From Thermaurantimonas aggregans (GTDB lineage: Bacteria > Bacteroidota > Bacteroidia > Flavobacteriales > Schleiferiaceae): a stretch of DNA of 64,000 nt. The stretch spans positions 1-64,000 of the forward strand of contig NZ_BHZE01000010.1 of NCBI RefSeq assembly GCF_003851885.1. The letters are read 5' to 3'. The notes below the pieces were generated by a model that saw only the letters and a program-made list of their open reading frames with translations, had not been told where the DNA came from and made no database searches. The position numbers and the translations under genes were made by a program. Below are positions 42,389 to 47,756 of this stretch, in pieces; position 1 is the stretch's first letter, and each line of letters starts with the position of its first letter.

Positions 42389-43864
42389 ATGAGAATATTT
42401 TTTATACTTGTAACTTATTTATTAAAACTCTATTCCAATGCACAAAGCGACACTACATTTTTCCGCTCCTTTAATCTACACGCTCGGGAAATAAGCATAA
42501 ATCATGTGGTGGAATCATCCTCGTATTTTTATGTGTTTTTTAAGGCAAAATATTATCCCGGTGGAAGCACGGGACCTCAACCTCAAATAGGAATCTATGA
42601 TAAAGAAGGATTCTTGTTGGATTATTATGACCTGTTTCCCTTCTCAGTGATATGGTCGTCAATATACCCTCAATATATCTATAGCGATCGGTACATTCTT
42701 GTACTGGATTTTAGCGATTATTCCAACCCAAACAATGTATCCAATGGATTAATGCTTTTAGATATGAAAACAAGATCTATTGTCTGGAGAAATGGCTTTA
42801 AAGGATGGCTTCTTTCAACTAATGATACTATCGCATCTGCCCTAGAAAACATGTATAATTATGATGAAATATTGAAATTAGGTTTTGTTAATATAAATAA
42901 TGGCACAATAGTAAAATACTTCTCTATTGATAGTATCATAGATAGTTTCGGTTTAGAGGCCTCTCATTTCAGATATGCACAACATTATTCCTTCGGCGAT
43001 ACCCTTATATTGAAATTAAATAGCAAAAATATTTTATCTAAAAAACTTCTCATTTCATTTGTAGGAATGAATTTTTACTCGTTTCAGGAAATAACAGACA
43101 GTGCTATTTCGCGATTTTACAGTGCTGATAAAAATTTTGAGGTAAGTATAATGATGGATATTATTGATTCAATTCATTTTATGGCAGGATACTATAATTA
43201 TTGCAGAAATTTTACATTATGGATTAATGATAAAATCAATCATACTTTAAGAGAATTTAAATTGGACGAAAAATTGCAGCAAAAGTGTTTCACCATTAAC
43301 AATTTAATTTTTAATTCCGATAGCACGTTTACAATTTTATATACTTACTCAAATAGATCAGATTATTCTCCCACCAATTATTGTCTGGCAAATATTAATA
43401 TGAATGGGGATGTAGAATGGTGTATGGATTACGGCTTGCCATTTGGAAGAAATTATATATCTAATCTGAGAAAATCTAAAGATGGCGGATACTTTTTTAT
43501 TCATAGCCTTGGACAATTACAAGCTTTATGCAAAACGGATAAGAGAGGAAAAATCTATGACAGTGACTTTGGAGTAACTTACACCTTCAGTAATTGTGAA
43601 AATGTTAAAGTACTTGAAAAACCTGATATTCAATCCAATATTTTCGTATTCCCAAATCCATCAAATTCAAAGGTTACAATACTGTCAAAAAACAAATTAA
43701 TGCTCAAAGTATTCTCTGTTGAAGGCAAATACCTCGGTACCTACAATTTAACAGAATTTGAAAGTCAAATAGATCTTTCCTATCTCAAATCTGGAATGTA
43801 TTTTTTTGTGTTTTTTGATGAACTTAATGAGTACTTAAAAACGGAAAAAATTATTAAACTATGA
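42389..43864 (+). CDS. T9SS-type secreted protein, paralog 1
   Basis: 491 residues with a signal peptide (MRIFFILVTYLLKLYSNAQ). The central region is beta-rich with no recognised enzymatic motif. The segment NMNGDVEWCMDYGLPF...KSKDGGYFFI...KTDKRGKIYDSDFGVTYTFSNC matches the corresponding block of the next gene. The end SNIFVFPNPSNSKVTIL...LKSGMYFFVFF is a T9SS type A sorting domain. It is strongly AT-rich, unlike the fragment 18 bases before it, and overlaps the next gene by 4 bases (ATGA). Confidence 0.85.
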   Translation: MRIFFILVTYLLKLYSNAQSDTTFFRSFNLHAREISINHVVESSSYFYVFFKAKYYPGGSTGPQPQIGIYDKEGFLLDYYDLFPFSVIWSSIYPQYIYSDRYILVLDFSDYSNPNNVSNGLMLLDMKTRSIVWRNGFKGWLLSTNDTIASALENMYNYDEILKLGFVNINNGTIVKYFSIDSIIDSFGLEASHFRYAQHYSFGDTLILKLNSKNILSKKLLISFVGMNFYSFQEITDSAISRFYSADKNFEVSIMMDIIDSIHFMAGYYNYCRNFTLWINDKINHTLREFKLDEKLQQKCFTINNLIFNSDSTFTILYTYSNRSDYSPTNYCLANINMNGDVEWCMDYGLPFGRNYISNLRKSKDGGYFFIHSLGQLQALCKTDKRGKIYDSDFGVTYTFSNCENVKVLEKPDIQSNIFVFPNPSNSKVTILSKNKLMLKVFSVEGKYLGTYNLTEFESQIDLSYLKSGMYFFVFFDELNEYLKTEKIIKL

Positions 43865-45318
43865 GGTTGATAATAATCATTATTTCTATACTTTTATGTA
43901 CGCAAATACATGGACAAGAAAACAAGACATTTACAAGAAAAATTCCAGCTATTAATCATATAAATTCAAGATCAGGTAATTCTGTAGAGAATAATTTAGG
44001 ATATCATTCTGTTTTCGAAAACTTAATTCCACATCCTTTGTCCGGAAGACTTCCAAAAGTAGTATTAGTAAATCATACATATACCCATGGAGTAAGGCTT
44101 TTAAGTATTTTTGGTTTTAACCATTCTAACTACTCCATTATAAAATTACATGATTTCTATAGAGATAGTAACCTTTTATTTAGTCATATTTCCGAACTTT
44201 ATTCCCCCGCCGGTTATTATATCTCATGTGGATATTTTTCTCATATAATTGATACAAATTTAATGTATATAGTAAAGAATATTAATGATTTCTGCGGACC
44301 TGTCATTAAAGTAACAGATTCTACCGTCCTGGGTATAGATACTTTTTTTAACAAATTTTCAGTGTACTTCATCAACCCATATACAGCAGAAAAGTACTTT
44401 CTTATAGATATTGATTCAACCATTAATGAAATTTTTTCGGACAAAGACAATGTATATCTTCATGAACTTTTCATCCGTCAAGACTCAGCCCATGCCATCT
44501 TTGTGCATCGACAAGACCCTTCACTTAAGGTAAGACTGGTCTTCTCTCAATCGGGCTTCGAAAAACTCCACATCGAGCAGCATCCCTACGACCGCCATTG
44601 GTACTTCTCCGGCACCCGACTGGGTGTAAAGCGACGGGTACTCTACGAAAATACCTCCATCTACGACGGCAAGGCCGATGGCACCCTCGATGTATTCGAC
44701 CATCACGACCTGCGTATCCTCTCCTTCTCTCTATCTAACTGGGCTGATGACTTCTCCTTCCTGCCCGAAAAAGTCTTCTGGGAGCCCGACAATACCCTCT
44801 CCATCTTCTACCGCTACCGGCGAAAGGGCAGCCCCAAAGTCTTTACCGCCCTGATGAACATCGACCTACAAGGCCAGGTCAACTGGTGTATGGACTATTG
44901 GCTGCAAAACTTTCGCGTCACCATCAACGACATCATCAAAACTTGGGATGGGGGCTTTTACATGATTCTCGAGCAATACGGTGTTGGTTTTCACGTGATG
45001 AAAACCGACAAACGCGGCCGGGTGTATGAAAGCGAAAACGGTATCACCTACACCCGCTCCAACTGCTCGCATACCGAACTGCCTCGTCGCACCGACATCC
45101 TGCTCTTCCCCAATCCCTCCAGTGGGCGCTTTACTCTCCAAACCGGTGAGTACGGCCTACTCCAAATCGTAAATCTGGCCGGTCAGGTCGTCTTTGAAAC
45201 CGCCATCCAAGACCATACTACCGAAGTGCTCTTCGGCCGTCTGCCCGCCGGTATATACATCGCGCGCTTCATCGGTGAGAGCGGCTCTACAGCCAGCGAA
45301 AAATTGGTGGTGTATTGA
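43861..45318 (+). CDS. T9SS-type secreted protein, paralog 2
   Basis: 485 residues with a signal peptide (MRLIIIIISILLCTQIHGQ). The C-terminal half holds DLQGQVNWCMDYWLQNF...TWDGGFYMIL...KTDKRGRVYESENGITYTRSNC, a clear paralog of the preceding protein, and ends in a T9SS domain (ILLFPNPSSGRFTLQ...LPAGIYIARF). The first 600 bases are AT-rich like the neighbour, while from about 44480 the sequence becomes GC-rich with C-ending codons, without any break in frame. Function unknown. Confidence 0.85.
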   Translation: MRLIIIIISILLCTQIHGQENKTFTRKIPAINHINSRSGNSVENNLGYHSVFENLIPHPLSGRLPKVVLVNHTYTHGVRLLSIFGFNHSNYSIIKLHDFYRDSNLLFSHISELYSPAGYYISCGYFSHIIDTNLMYIVKNINDFCGPVIKVTDSTVLGIDTFFNKFSVYFINPYTAEKYFLIDIDSTINEIFSDKDNVYLHELFIRQDSAHAIFVHRQDPSLKVRLVFSQSGFEKLHIEQHPYDRHWYFSGTRLGVKRRVLYENTSIYDGKADGTLDVFDHHDLRILSFSLSNWADDFSFLPEKVFWEPDNTLSIFYRYRRKGSPKVFTALMNIDLQGQVNWCMDYWLQNFRVTINDIIKTWDGGFYMILEQYGVGFHVMKTDKRGRVYESENGITYTRSNCSHTELPRRTDILLFPNPSSGRFTLQTGEYGLLQIVNLAGQVVFETAIQDHTTEVLFGRLPAGIYIARFIGESGSTASEKLVVY

Positions 45319-45441: not shown

Positions 45442-45468
45442 TTGGTTAGATATAATCCTGTACTTTTA
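45442..45468 (+). promoter_or_regulatory. Possible promoter for the LiaF-like gene
   Basis: TTG (45442-45444), 16 bases, then TACTTTTA (45461-45468), one mismatch from TAnnTTTG, 18 bases before the ATG at 45487. Confidence 0.4.
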
Positions 45469-45486
45469 CTTAAAAATAAATCCACT

Positions 45487-46185
45487 ATGACTTCTAACTC
45501 TACCCTATCACGAGTCCTTCCAGGCCTTTTTATCATAGGCATCGGTTTGGTATGGATGCTTCGCGTGGCCGGAGTGATGATTCCCGATTGGCTGTTTAGC
45601 TGGGAAATGCTTTTAATCGCTTTGGGATTGTTTTTAGGCATCAAATCGGGTTTTAAAGATTGGAATTTTCTGCTGCCTCTGGGTGTTGGAGTCATCTTTT
45701 TCATCAATGACTTTACGGACCTAAGACTTGGCAAGTTTTTGATACCTGCATTAATTATTCTTTTGGGAATGTATGTGATAGCAAAAAACCTTATAAAACC
45801 CAAAAATAACTCAGGTGCAGATGGCTTCGGTCTTTCTACCGAACATACCACAACCGATGGTGTGGTGAAAATAGACGCCTTTCTGAGCGGAATAAAAAAG
45901 TCTTACGACCTGCCGGAGTTTAAGGGAGGTACGATCAACAATCTGCTGGCCGGCGTGGACCTCAATCTGAAAAACACCAAAGTACATGGCACAGCGGTGC
46001 TCACTGTCAGCACCTTGCTTGGCGGAGTGAAAATTTGGCTTCCAGACGATGTACAGCTGATTTCTGAAATACAGGCCGTGATGGGCGATGTGGATGACAA
46101 GCGCTTTCGTGCCAGCTCCAATCCTACCGGCACGATTATTCTAAGGGGCAGCGCGATGCTCGGTGGTATAGAAATCAGAAGTTAG
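45487..46185 (+). CDS. LiaF-like membrane protein
   Basis: 232 residues from the ATG at 45487 (an upstream in-frame start precedes the likely promoter box). The first 110 residues hold four hydrophobic segments of the LiaI/LiaF transmembrane type (FIIGIGLVWML, LLIALGLFLG, GVGVIFFIND, ALIILLGMYVIAK). The C-terminus is the LiaF beta-helix-like domain with GGTINNLLAGVDLNLKNTKV, LLGGVKIWLPDDVQL and SAMLGGIEIRS. In Firmicutes LiaF inhibits an envelope-stress kinase; in Bacteroidota the role is unknown and no LiaRS pair is adjacent. Confidence 0.82.
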   Translation: MTSNSTLSRVLPGLFIIGIGLVWMLRVAGVMIPDWLFSWEMLLIALGLFLGIKSGFKDWNFLLPLGVGVIFFINDFTDLRLGKFLIPALIILLGMYVIAKNLIKPKNNSGADGFGLSTEHTTTDGVVKIDAFLSGIKKSYDLPEFKGGTINNLLAGVDLNLKNTKVHGTAVLTVSTLLGGVKIWLPDDVQLISEIQAVMGDVDDKRFRASSNPTGTIILRGSAMLGGIEIRS

Positions 46186-46300
46186 AAAATTACAGCATGC
46201 AAAATGATTTGAGAATTCGCCAATCGCATTCGTGTTTTTTTGAAATATTTGCGATTTTTTTATTCTTTATTCATTCTTTTTTCAAGAAAAATATAATGTT

Positions 46301-46332
46301 TTTGAAGTATAAAAAAAATTGAAATACTTTCG
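46301..46332 (+). promoter_or_regulatory. Promoter of metK
   Basis: TTTG (46301-46304), 20 bases, then TACTTTCG (46325-46332), a one-mismatch TAnnTTTG. It ends 11 bases before the riboswitch P1 helix, so the transcript should start just ahead of the aptamer. Confidence 0.55.
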
Positions 46333-46342
46333 TCCCCGTGAA

Positions 46343-46393
46343 TGTGGACAGATTTGAACTGATTGCAACCACACTAAAAAATGCTAAAACAGT
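46343..46393 (+). promoter_or_regulatory. SAM-II riboswitch aptamer upstream of metK
   Basis: Pseudoknot layout of the SAM-II (SAM-alpha) class. P1 is TGTGG (46343-46347) with CCACA (46369-46373), enclosing GATTTGAACTGATTGCAA, which carries the conserved GATTT and TTGCAA. P2 is ACTG (46358-46361) with CAGT (46390-46393), after the A-rich strand with the conserved TGCTAAAA. SAM-II is known from alpha-proteobacteria and Bacteroidota and controls methionine and SAM genes. Its position before SAM synthetase fits feedback repression. Confidence 0.85.
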
Positions 46394-46432
46394 ACCCGGT
46401 CATCCAATCGAAGTTCTGTACAAGGCGTTTTA

Positions 46433-46477
46433 GGGGTTTAGACAGTTCAATCACCACACCGCCAATTGTTTAACCCC
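46433..46477 (+). promoter_or_regulatory. Expression-platform hairpin and anti-aptamer of the metK riboswitch
   Basis: GGGGTT (46433-46438) pairs with AACCCC (46472-46477), extended inward by ACAGTT with AATTGT. Within it, CAGTTCAA (46443-46450) is perfectly complementary to TTGAACTG of the aptamer (46354-46361), and CCACA (46454-46458) to P1 strand TGTGG. The hairpin and the anti-aptamer helix exclude each other. No T run follows, so control is probably at translation of metK, whose ATG is 16 bases on. Confidence 0.6.
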
Positions 46478-46493
46478 AAAAATTTCAACCAAA

Positions 46494-47756
46494 ATGCCTT
46501 ATCTGTTTACCTCCGAATCGGTAAGTGAAGGACACCCCGACAAAGTAGCCGACCAAATCTCTGACGCCATCCTCGACCACTTCCTGGCCTTTGACCCGGA
46601 CAGCAAAGTTGCTTGTGAGACACTTGTAACCACCGGCCAGGTAATTGTAGCTGGTGAAGTAAAGACCAATACCTACATCGACATTCAAACCATCGTGCGC
46701 GACACCATCCGCCGAATCGGTTATACTAAGAGCGAATACATGTTTGAAGCCAACTCTTGCGGTATCCTCACTGCCATACACGAGCAAAGCCCCGATATCA
46801 ATCAGGGTGTAGAGCGCGGTACTCCTGAAGAGCAAGGTGCCGGTGATCAGGGGATGATGTTTGGCTACGCCACCAACGAAACAGCCAACTACATGCCTCT
46901 GGCGCTTGATCTAAGCCATAAACTGTTGATTGAGTTGGCCGCTATCCGCAAAGAAGGTCGCATGATGACCTACCTGCGACCTGACGCCAAAAGCCAGGTG
47001 ACCATCCAATACAGCGATGACAATCGCCCGGAGAAGATTCACACCATCGTCATCAGCACCCAGCACGATGAATTTGACACCGAAGCGCGCATGCAGGAGG
47101 TGATTAAAAAAGACATCATCGACATCCTTATTCCAAGAGTTAAAGCTCAGCTCACTCCGGAGCTTCAGAAGCTTTTCACAGATGACATCATCTACCACAT
47201 TAACCCGACGGGCAAATTCGTCATTGGTGGCCCACATGGCGATACCGGACTTACAGGCCGCAAAATCATCGTAGATACTTACGGCGGAAAGGGCGCTCAT
47301 GGTGGTGGTGCCTTCAGTGGCAAAGACCCTTCTAAAGTGGACCGCTCAGCTGCCTATGCCTGCCGTCACATTGCGAAGAATCTGGTGGCTGCCGGAGTAG
47401 CCGATGAAATTCTGGTGCAAGTGTCATATGCCATCGGTATCGCTCGTCCTGTTAACATTTTTGTAAATACCTACGGCACTGCCAAACATGGCCTTACCGA
47501 CCAAAAAATCGCTGAAGGCGTGGAAGCTATCTTCGACATGCGCCCGTACGAAATCGAAAAGCGTCTTGGCCTGCGCTCACCCATCTACAGCGAAACAGCT
47601 GCCTACGGCCATATGGGTCGCCAACCTCAAACGGTGATCAAAACCTTTCGCAAGCCAGATCACAACGGTACTTTGGTGCTCAAAAAAGAAGTAAAACTCT
47701 TCACCTGGGAAGAGCTAAATTATATAGATGCTATTAAAAAGTACTTCAAAATATAA
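46494..47756 (+). CDS. metK: S-adenosylmethionine synthetase
   Basis: 420 residues. It makes SAM from methionine and ATP. Motifs: [24 protein letters not shown] at the N-terminus in outline, GEVKTN, the catalytic loop region [36 protein letters not shown] and [19 protein letters not shown]. It is slightly longer than the E. coli enzyme, with an insert around residues 180-200, as usual in Bacteroidota. It is preceded by a SAM-II riboswitch and followed by a terminator, so it is monocistronic and feedback-controlled. Confidence 0.98.

Follow-up and report, generated by a model that had tools for sequence, protein, structure and literature searches.

A predicted strand-exchange platform between the SAM-II aptamer and the start codon of metK in Thermaurantimonas aggregans, with anti-aptamer complementarity across Bacteroidota leaders

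Analysis of a 64,000-nucleotide window of the Thermaurantimonas aggregans genome (contig NZ_BHZE01000010.1, positions 1 to 64,000) reveals, between a SAM-II aptamer and the metK start codon, a platform that carries a strand complementary to the aptamer itself. At the sequence level, this anti-aptamer is firmly a general feature of Bacteroidota metK SAM-II leaders that co-varies with the aptamer, and no oddity of the leader studied here, because the complementarity of aptamers to their own platforms exceeds that to shuffled platforms and to those of other species in 61 leaders. Predicted folds further make it probable, in our estimation, that the leader acts as a feedback OFF switch of metK translation, suited to ribosomes that ignore Shine-Dalgarno sequences.

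The SAM-II aptamer and the metK gene

The Rfam model of the SAM-II long-loop family (RF01726) matches the metK leader at 46338-46397 on the forward strand with 63.9 bits against a cut-off of 44 (E 5.5e-10), all of its positions (1-60 of 60) being aligned, and this is the only copy in the genome. The match sits upstream of a gene of methionine and SAM metabolism, the metK product scoring 519 bits against NCBIfam TIGR01034 (cut-off 309), and 96 nt lie between the end of the aptamer and the metK ATG (46494-46496). The first-pass annotation had placed a SAM-II element on metK from the letters alone, and both the Rfam scan and the presence of the P1 and P2 strands bear it out; on this sequence evidence we take 46338-46397 to be a SAM-II (long loop) riboswitch and infer that it binds SAM. 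The P2 pseudoknot falls outside the Rfam bracket line and was assigned after the SAM-II description in PMC1273637. The elements of this part of the leader are:

46301-46332, forward strand: putative Bacteroidota promoter, TTTG (46301-46304) and TACTTTCG (46325-46332), read from the sequence
46338-46397, forward strand: SAM-II (long loop) aptamer, matched by RF01726 over the whole model
46343-46373, forward strand: P1, TGTGG (46343-46347) with CCACA (46369-46373), from the Rfam alignment and the sequence
46358-46393, forward strand: P2 pseudoknot, ACTG (46358-46361) with CAGT (46390-46393), seen as sequence only
46494-47756, forward strand: metK, methionine adenosyltransferase, which makes SAM (420 aa; open reading frame, TIGR01034)

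The -7 consensus of Bacteroidota promoters is TAnnTTTG; TACTTTCG comes near it and ends five bases 5′ of the Rfam match, and most related leaders have a similar box a few bases 5′ of P1. Given the putative promoter and its counterparts, transcription probably starts at about 46338-46340, so that the aptamer would begin the 5′ end of the RNA.

Directly 5′ of the metK leader lies a membrane-like open reading frame (45442-46185), whose match to the LiaF C-terminal domain (NF040535) is weak and does not reach the cut-off. Positions 43861-45318 encode a 485-aa protein with a T9SS type A sorting domain (TIGR04183, over cut-off), which a similar-looking 491-aa open reading frame (42389-43864) adjoins.

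Complementarity between platform and aptamer

The first-pass annotation had singled out two platform stretches complementary to the 5′ strands of the aptamer, and they read exactly as it gave them: TTGAACTG (46354-46361) is complementary to CAGTTCAA (46443-46450), and TGTGG (46343-46347) to CCACA (46454-46458). The two-part anti-aptamer that it built on them is also supported, with a register in the predicted fold that is slightly shifted and longer, comprising 15 pairs: TGTGG/CCACA, GATT (46351-46354)/AATC (46449-46452) and GAACTG (46356-46361)/CAGTTC (46443-46448).

46443-46458, forward strand: anti-aptamer strand CAGTTCAATCACCACA, pairing with TGTGG (46343-46347), GATT (46351-46354) and GAACTG (46356-46361), according to the predicted fold and the family-wide complementarity

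An 8-mer complementary to the aptamer 5′ arm occurs in 5.1% of 20,000 dinucleotide-shuffled platforms, and an 8-mer and then a 5-mer complement in order in 0.39%; as the test was designed with the observation already in view, these values constitute a lower bound on chance. Taken alone, this leader stands out only modestly in the energy of the whole duplex (p 0.11 with shuffles and 0.04 with swapped platforms as reference). The case for the anti-aptamer is carried by the relatives, and this leader alone would not suffice.

The closest relatives are L016, from the sole other genome found in the genus, and L015, from another genus of the same family; these and the present leader are the only three with the long-platform form. 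Both retain the complementarity of 46443-46458, on whose conservation in related leaders the first-pass annotation had staked its reading. L016 keeps GTGGA/TCCAC, GATT/AATC and the bulged GAACTG pairing, and L015 has GTGCTG for GAACTG in the aptamer and CAGTAC for CAGTTC in the platform, a compensatory replacement in which one A-U pair is turned into U-A by changes in both strands and another becomes G-U. A MAFFT alignment of the three leaders misplaced L015 in the platform, and pair counts derived from it were discarded.

For the wider comparison, 98 distinct metK leaders from the order were grouped by sequence similarity, with no tree, into 26 clusters (the order set), and 35 leaders were collected separately from other Bacteroidota records (the named set), adding up to 61 leaders; L046 and L047, from the same order as this genome, match the named Flavobacterium leaders L105, L115 and L120. 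In each leader, the duplex energy of the aptamer 5′ half was computed against three kinds of partner: its own platform, shuffled versions of it, and platforms taken from other species. Mean energies for own, shuffled and swapped platforms were -17.8, -12.7 (p 8e-7) and -14.1 kcal/mol in the order set and -15.4, -11.4 (p 1e-7) and -13.1 kcal/mol in the named set, with 0 of 20,000 permutations as low in either. Over all 61 leaders they were -16.4, -11.9 (p 2.7e-10) and -13.4 kcal/mol (z -8.9 for own against swapped), and the result holds after correction for composition by subtracting the shuffled mean of each platform (z -8.6, 0 of 20,000 permutations). On the same 61 leaders, a control with the reversed aptamer half gave no signal (z -0.9) and one with the uncomplemented half left a small residue (z -2.7, 43 of 10,000).

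Analysed by segment against swaps, the order set shows the effect in the P1-strand part (z -4.2) and in the L1 part (z -2.3); in the named set the L1 part stands out (z -3.2) and the P1-strand part alone is no better than swaps (z -0.5). The segment energies of the P1 3′ strand, for which no target is expected, show no excess over swaps. Near-complete copies can also be recognized by eye, such as CACTCGAATCTCACCAC in L023 and CAAATCCGCTTCCTC in L085. The first-pass annotation had called a 100-base platform with a two-part switch helix less familiar. The anti-aptamer itself is not special to this leader: in metK SAM-II leaders of Bacteroidota, platforms are as a rule complementary to their aptamers and usually span 50-80 nt.

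Two simpler measures were set aside. Counts of CCAC and CCTC in platforms show no clear association with P1 type (GTGG or GAGG), and P1-level co-variation is accordingly left unclaimed from counts. A pairing profile along the aptamer reveals no enrichment of the two-part form (44/61, against 63% in shuffles), since almost any sequence finds a partner in the G-rich P1 strand; segment energies against swaps were used instead.

These comparisons bear on the reading that the folded aptamer alone hinders the ribosome, as in the compact SAM-II element of the Sargasso Sea, with the platform complementarity incidental. A recent review classes SAM-II as a direct-occlusion switch (PMC10907184), and the duplex of this leader taken singly reaches only p 0.11 against shuffles. 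Over 61 leaders, however, the platform complementarity follows the aptamer. The ribosome site, moreover, is neither in nor next to the aptamer, the 96 nt gap being too long for occlusion as described, and Shine-Dalgarno pairing is unused by Bacteroidia ribosomes (PMC9976891). We regard direct occlusion as the sole mechanism as quite improbable and favour a strand-exchange role for the platform.

The collection yielded three further observations. The SAM-II long loop of Flavobacterium-type leaders (L046, L047, L105, L115, L120, L130 and L135) is enlarged between P1 and AAAAAATGCTAAA by about 47 inserted bases that include stem-like repeats. A pattern search encountered no SAM-II pattern within 400 bases upstream of metK in L106-L109, L111, L112 and others (e.g. 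Cytophagaceae, Saprospiraceae, Chitinophagales and Hymenobacter). In L010, L024 and L025 (at about 1501-1725), a single intergenic region accommodates a SAM-I and a SAM-II riboswitch, back to back on opposite strands with 54-67 bases between them; a survey of 2007 (PMC2258182) had come across no species with both.

Predicted folds around the start codon

Two foldings, one of the whole leader and one restricted to the platform to mimic the SAM-bound state, outline the following elements:

46389-46419, forward strand: hairpin ACAG (46389-46392)/CTGT (46416-46419), present in both folds computed without SAM
46422-46431, forward strand: anti-start strand AAGGCGTTTT, forming 10 of 10 pairs (one G-U) with AAAATGCCTT (46491-46500) in the platform fold
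46424-46438, forward strand: exchange strand GGCGTTTTAGGGGTT, paired with the aptamer middle (46367-46385) in the predicted ON fold and with 46472-46477 and 46491-46498 in the predicted OFF fold
46433-46477, forward strand: OFF hairpin of the platform fold, GGGGTT (46433-46438)/AACCCC (46472-46477) and AGACAGTT (46440-46447)/AATTGTTT (46464-46471)
46491-46500, forward strand: start region AAAATGCCTT, with the metK ATG inside, sequestered in the predicted fold

When the platform is folded alone, the AAGGCGTTTT/AAAATGCCTT helix forms a stack with the GGGGTT/AACCCC hairpin, in which CAGTT is buried; a pairing run of this length arises in 1.65% of shuffled platforms. The computed folds support the competition between this hairpin and the anti-aptamer put forward in the first-pass annotation, and its idea that SAM drives the exchange stands as far as the competing folds go, the switching itself being a prediction. 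The extent that it assigned to the element, 46343-46477, has the stretches in place and stops short of the functional region, which reaches 46500, having missed the start-codon helix; because the hairpin extends into this 10-bp helix over the metK start, it gains a function. The ACAG/CTGT hairpin occupies part of the P2 3′ strand, an overlap which implies that it must open for P2 to form; CTGT and TTCTGT are kept in L015 and L016.

With 12 nt of coding sequence included, mutually exclusive folds that expose or bury the start are predicted in this leader and, with the same ON/OFF alternation, in L016 and L015. L016 has the start helix GGCGTTTT/AAAATGCC, GGGTTAA/TTAACCC as counterpart of the OFF hairpin and an unconstrained ON fold of -32.3 kcal/mol; the start helix of L015 is AAGGC-TTTTTTT/AAAAAAATGCCTT. 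The ON and OFF folds of the present leader come to -33.8 and -33.9 kcal/mol, energies computed with neither SAM nor pseudoknot (P2) terms; a switch that can be tipped by its ligand would be expected to show such near-equality. The start (-8 to +7) is predicted to be unpaired with a probability of 0.81 in the whole leader and 0.41 in the platform alone here, 0.93 and 0.42 in L016, and 0.84 and 0.10 in L015, with a smaller difference for a wider window (-25 to +3).

The predicted alternation in this leader depends on the length of coding sequence folded. With 18-30 nt, a third structure, in which 46344-46353 pairs with 46503-46512, becomes the minimum-energy fold; even in the absence of SAM, the start is then only about half open (0.45-0.46 unpaired; 0.64 at 42 nt). 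This dependence suggests that the switch of this leader probably hinges on the order of folding during transcription.

Across the wider set, the start is predicted to be more open in the whole leader than in the platform alone (+0.13 against +0.01 for shuffled platforms in the 26 clusters, p 0.002), and in the platform alone it is weakly buried (0.447 unpaired against 0.483 in shuffles over 61 leaders, p 0.017), with some leaders, such as L004, behaving in the opposite way. As a modelled structure, the start-codon helix is firm near this leader and tentative elsewhere. This disparity between weak start burial and strong aptamer complementarity in the wider set lends something to the idea that the anti-aptamer is real but serves another role, such as stabilising the mRNA or helping the leader to fold correctly, start burial being a side effect of A/T-rich sequence; SAM-II elements of S. 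meliloti do stabilise their own RNAs at high SAM (PMC9373788). We hold this to be improbable, in that the strand pairing with the start is the very strand held by the aptamer in the ON fold of this leader, L016 and L015, and we retain translational control through start burial as the preferred reading.

SAM might also, instead of or besides blocking translation, provoke premature termination, through an unusual intrinsic terminator or through Rho acting on the untranslated leader. The SAM-II RNAs of alpha- and beta-Proteobacteria most often precede predicted terminators (PMC2258182, PMC1273637), termination is predicted for the S. meliloti metZ switch (PMC9373788), and some relatives (L002 and L005) show, on visual inspection, T-rich tails behind a stem-like stretch. 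Against this, no terminator-like site was found in 46150-46600, the GGGGTT/AACCCC hairpin is directly followed on its 3′ side by AAAAATTTC, with no T run, and the outer helix sits on the start codon itself. Control of transcription hence appears unlikely. With no terminator-like site in the leader and no use of Shine-Dalgarno sequences in Bacteroidia, burial of the start codon is the remaining simple block, and a block on translation is the reading carried forward here.

Proposed mechanism and relation to known riboswitches

From the pairings, their co-variation with the aptamer and the near-equal energies, all of them computed, we infer the following course of switching and its effect on translation. 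The SAM-II aptamer would be transcribed before the platform. When SAM is scarce, CAGTTCAATCACCACA would pair back on the aptamer 5′ arm and GGCGTTTTAGGGGTT on the aptamer middle, dismantling the aptamer and leaving the metK ATG region single-stranded (ON). When SAM is bound, P1 and P2 would hold the aptamer together and free the platform strands, allowing AAGGCGTTTT to pair with AAAATGCCTT over the start codon, stacked on GGGGTT/AACCCC; ribosomes could then not start on the buried metK codon (OFF).

The leader agrees with the SAM-II long-loop family in two respects: its aptamer aligns to the full model with a score exceeding the gathering cut-off, and it stands before metK in a Bacteroidota genome. 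RF01726 is listed for Bacteroidetes and marine sequence in Weinberg et al. 2010 (PMC2864571). The family is defined by the aptamer, the platform with its anti-aptamer and start-codon helix lying outside the definition. With the compact SAM-II elements (SAM_alpha, RF00521; Sargasso Sea metX, S. meliloti metA) it shares the P1 stem, the P2 pseudoknot, a presumed OFF logic and the link to methionine and SAM metabolism. In those elements, P2 itself sequesters the Shine-Dalgarno sequence or a terminator follows (PMC10907184, PMC9373788). In this leader, by contrast, 96 nt separate the aptamer from the ATG, and the predicted strand exchange falls to a distinct platform. Classical antisequestor/sequestor translational riboswitches, described in general terms by Barrick and Breaker (PMC2258182), likewise use mutually exclusive pairings and OFF logic. 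Unlike theirs, the sequestor predicted here lies on the start codon rather than on the Shine-Dalgarno sequence, and the antisequestor would dismantle a small H-type pseudoknot aptamer; the antisequestor pairing is conserved by co-variation, as seen in own against shuffled and swapped platforms and in the compensatory change of L015. We found no description of a platform of this kind in the open-licence literature.

SAM-II, the textbook case of direct occlusion, is known from bacteria that use Shine-Dalgarno sequences, and a recent review classes it among the switches whose folded aptamer conceals that sequence (PMC10907184). Bacteroidia ribosomes do not recognise such sequences (PMC9976891); Bacteroidetes naturally lack them, and mRNA structure tunes initiation (PMC6847099). 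To the question of how riboswitches of Bacteroidota halt translation, these leaders offer a concrete candidate answer, a platform that would exchange pairing with the aptamer for pairing with the start codon. We tentatively propose, as a possibility that may well fail, that SAM-II in Bacteroidota has abandoned the hiding of a Shine-Dalgarno sequence and relies instead on a strand-exchange platform, with an anti-aptamer that co-evolves with the aptamer and an OFF state that buries the start codon. Co-variation over dozens of genera makes a general rule for SAM-II in the phylum likely and supplies many natural variants. If this holds, bacteria whose ribosomes are blind to Shine-Dalgarno sequences would have in it a general design for translational riboswitches.
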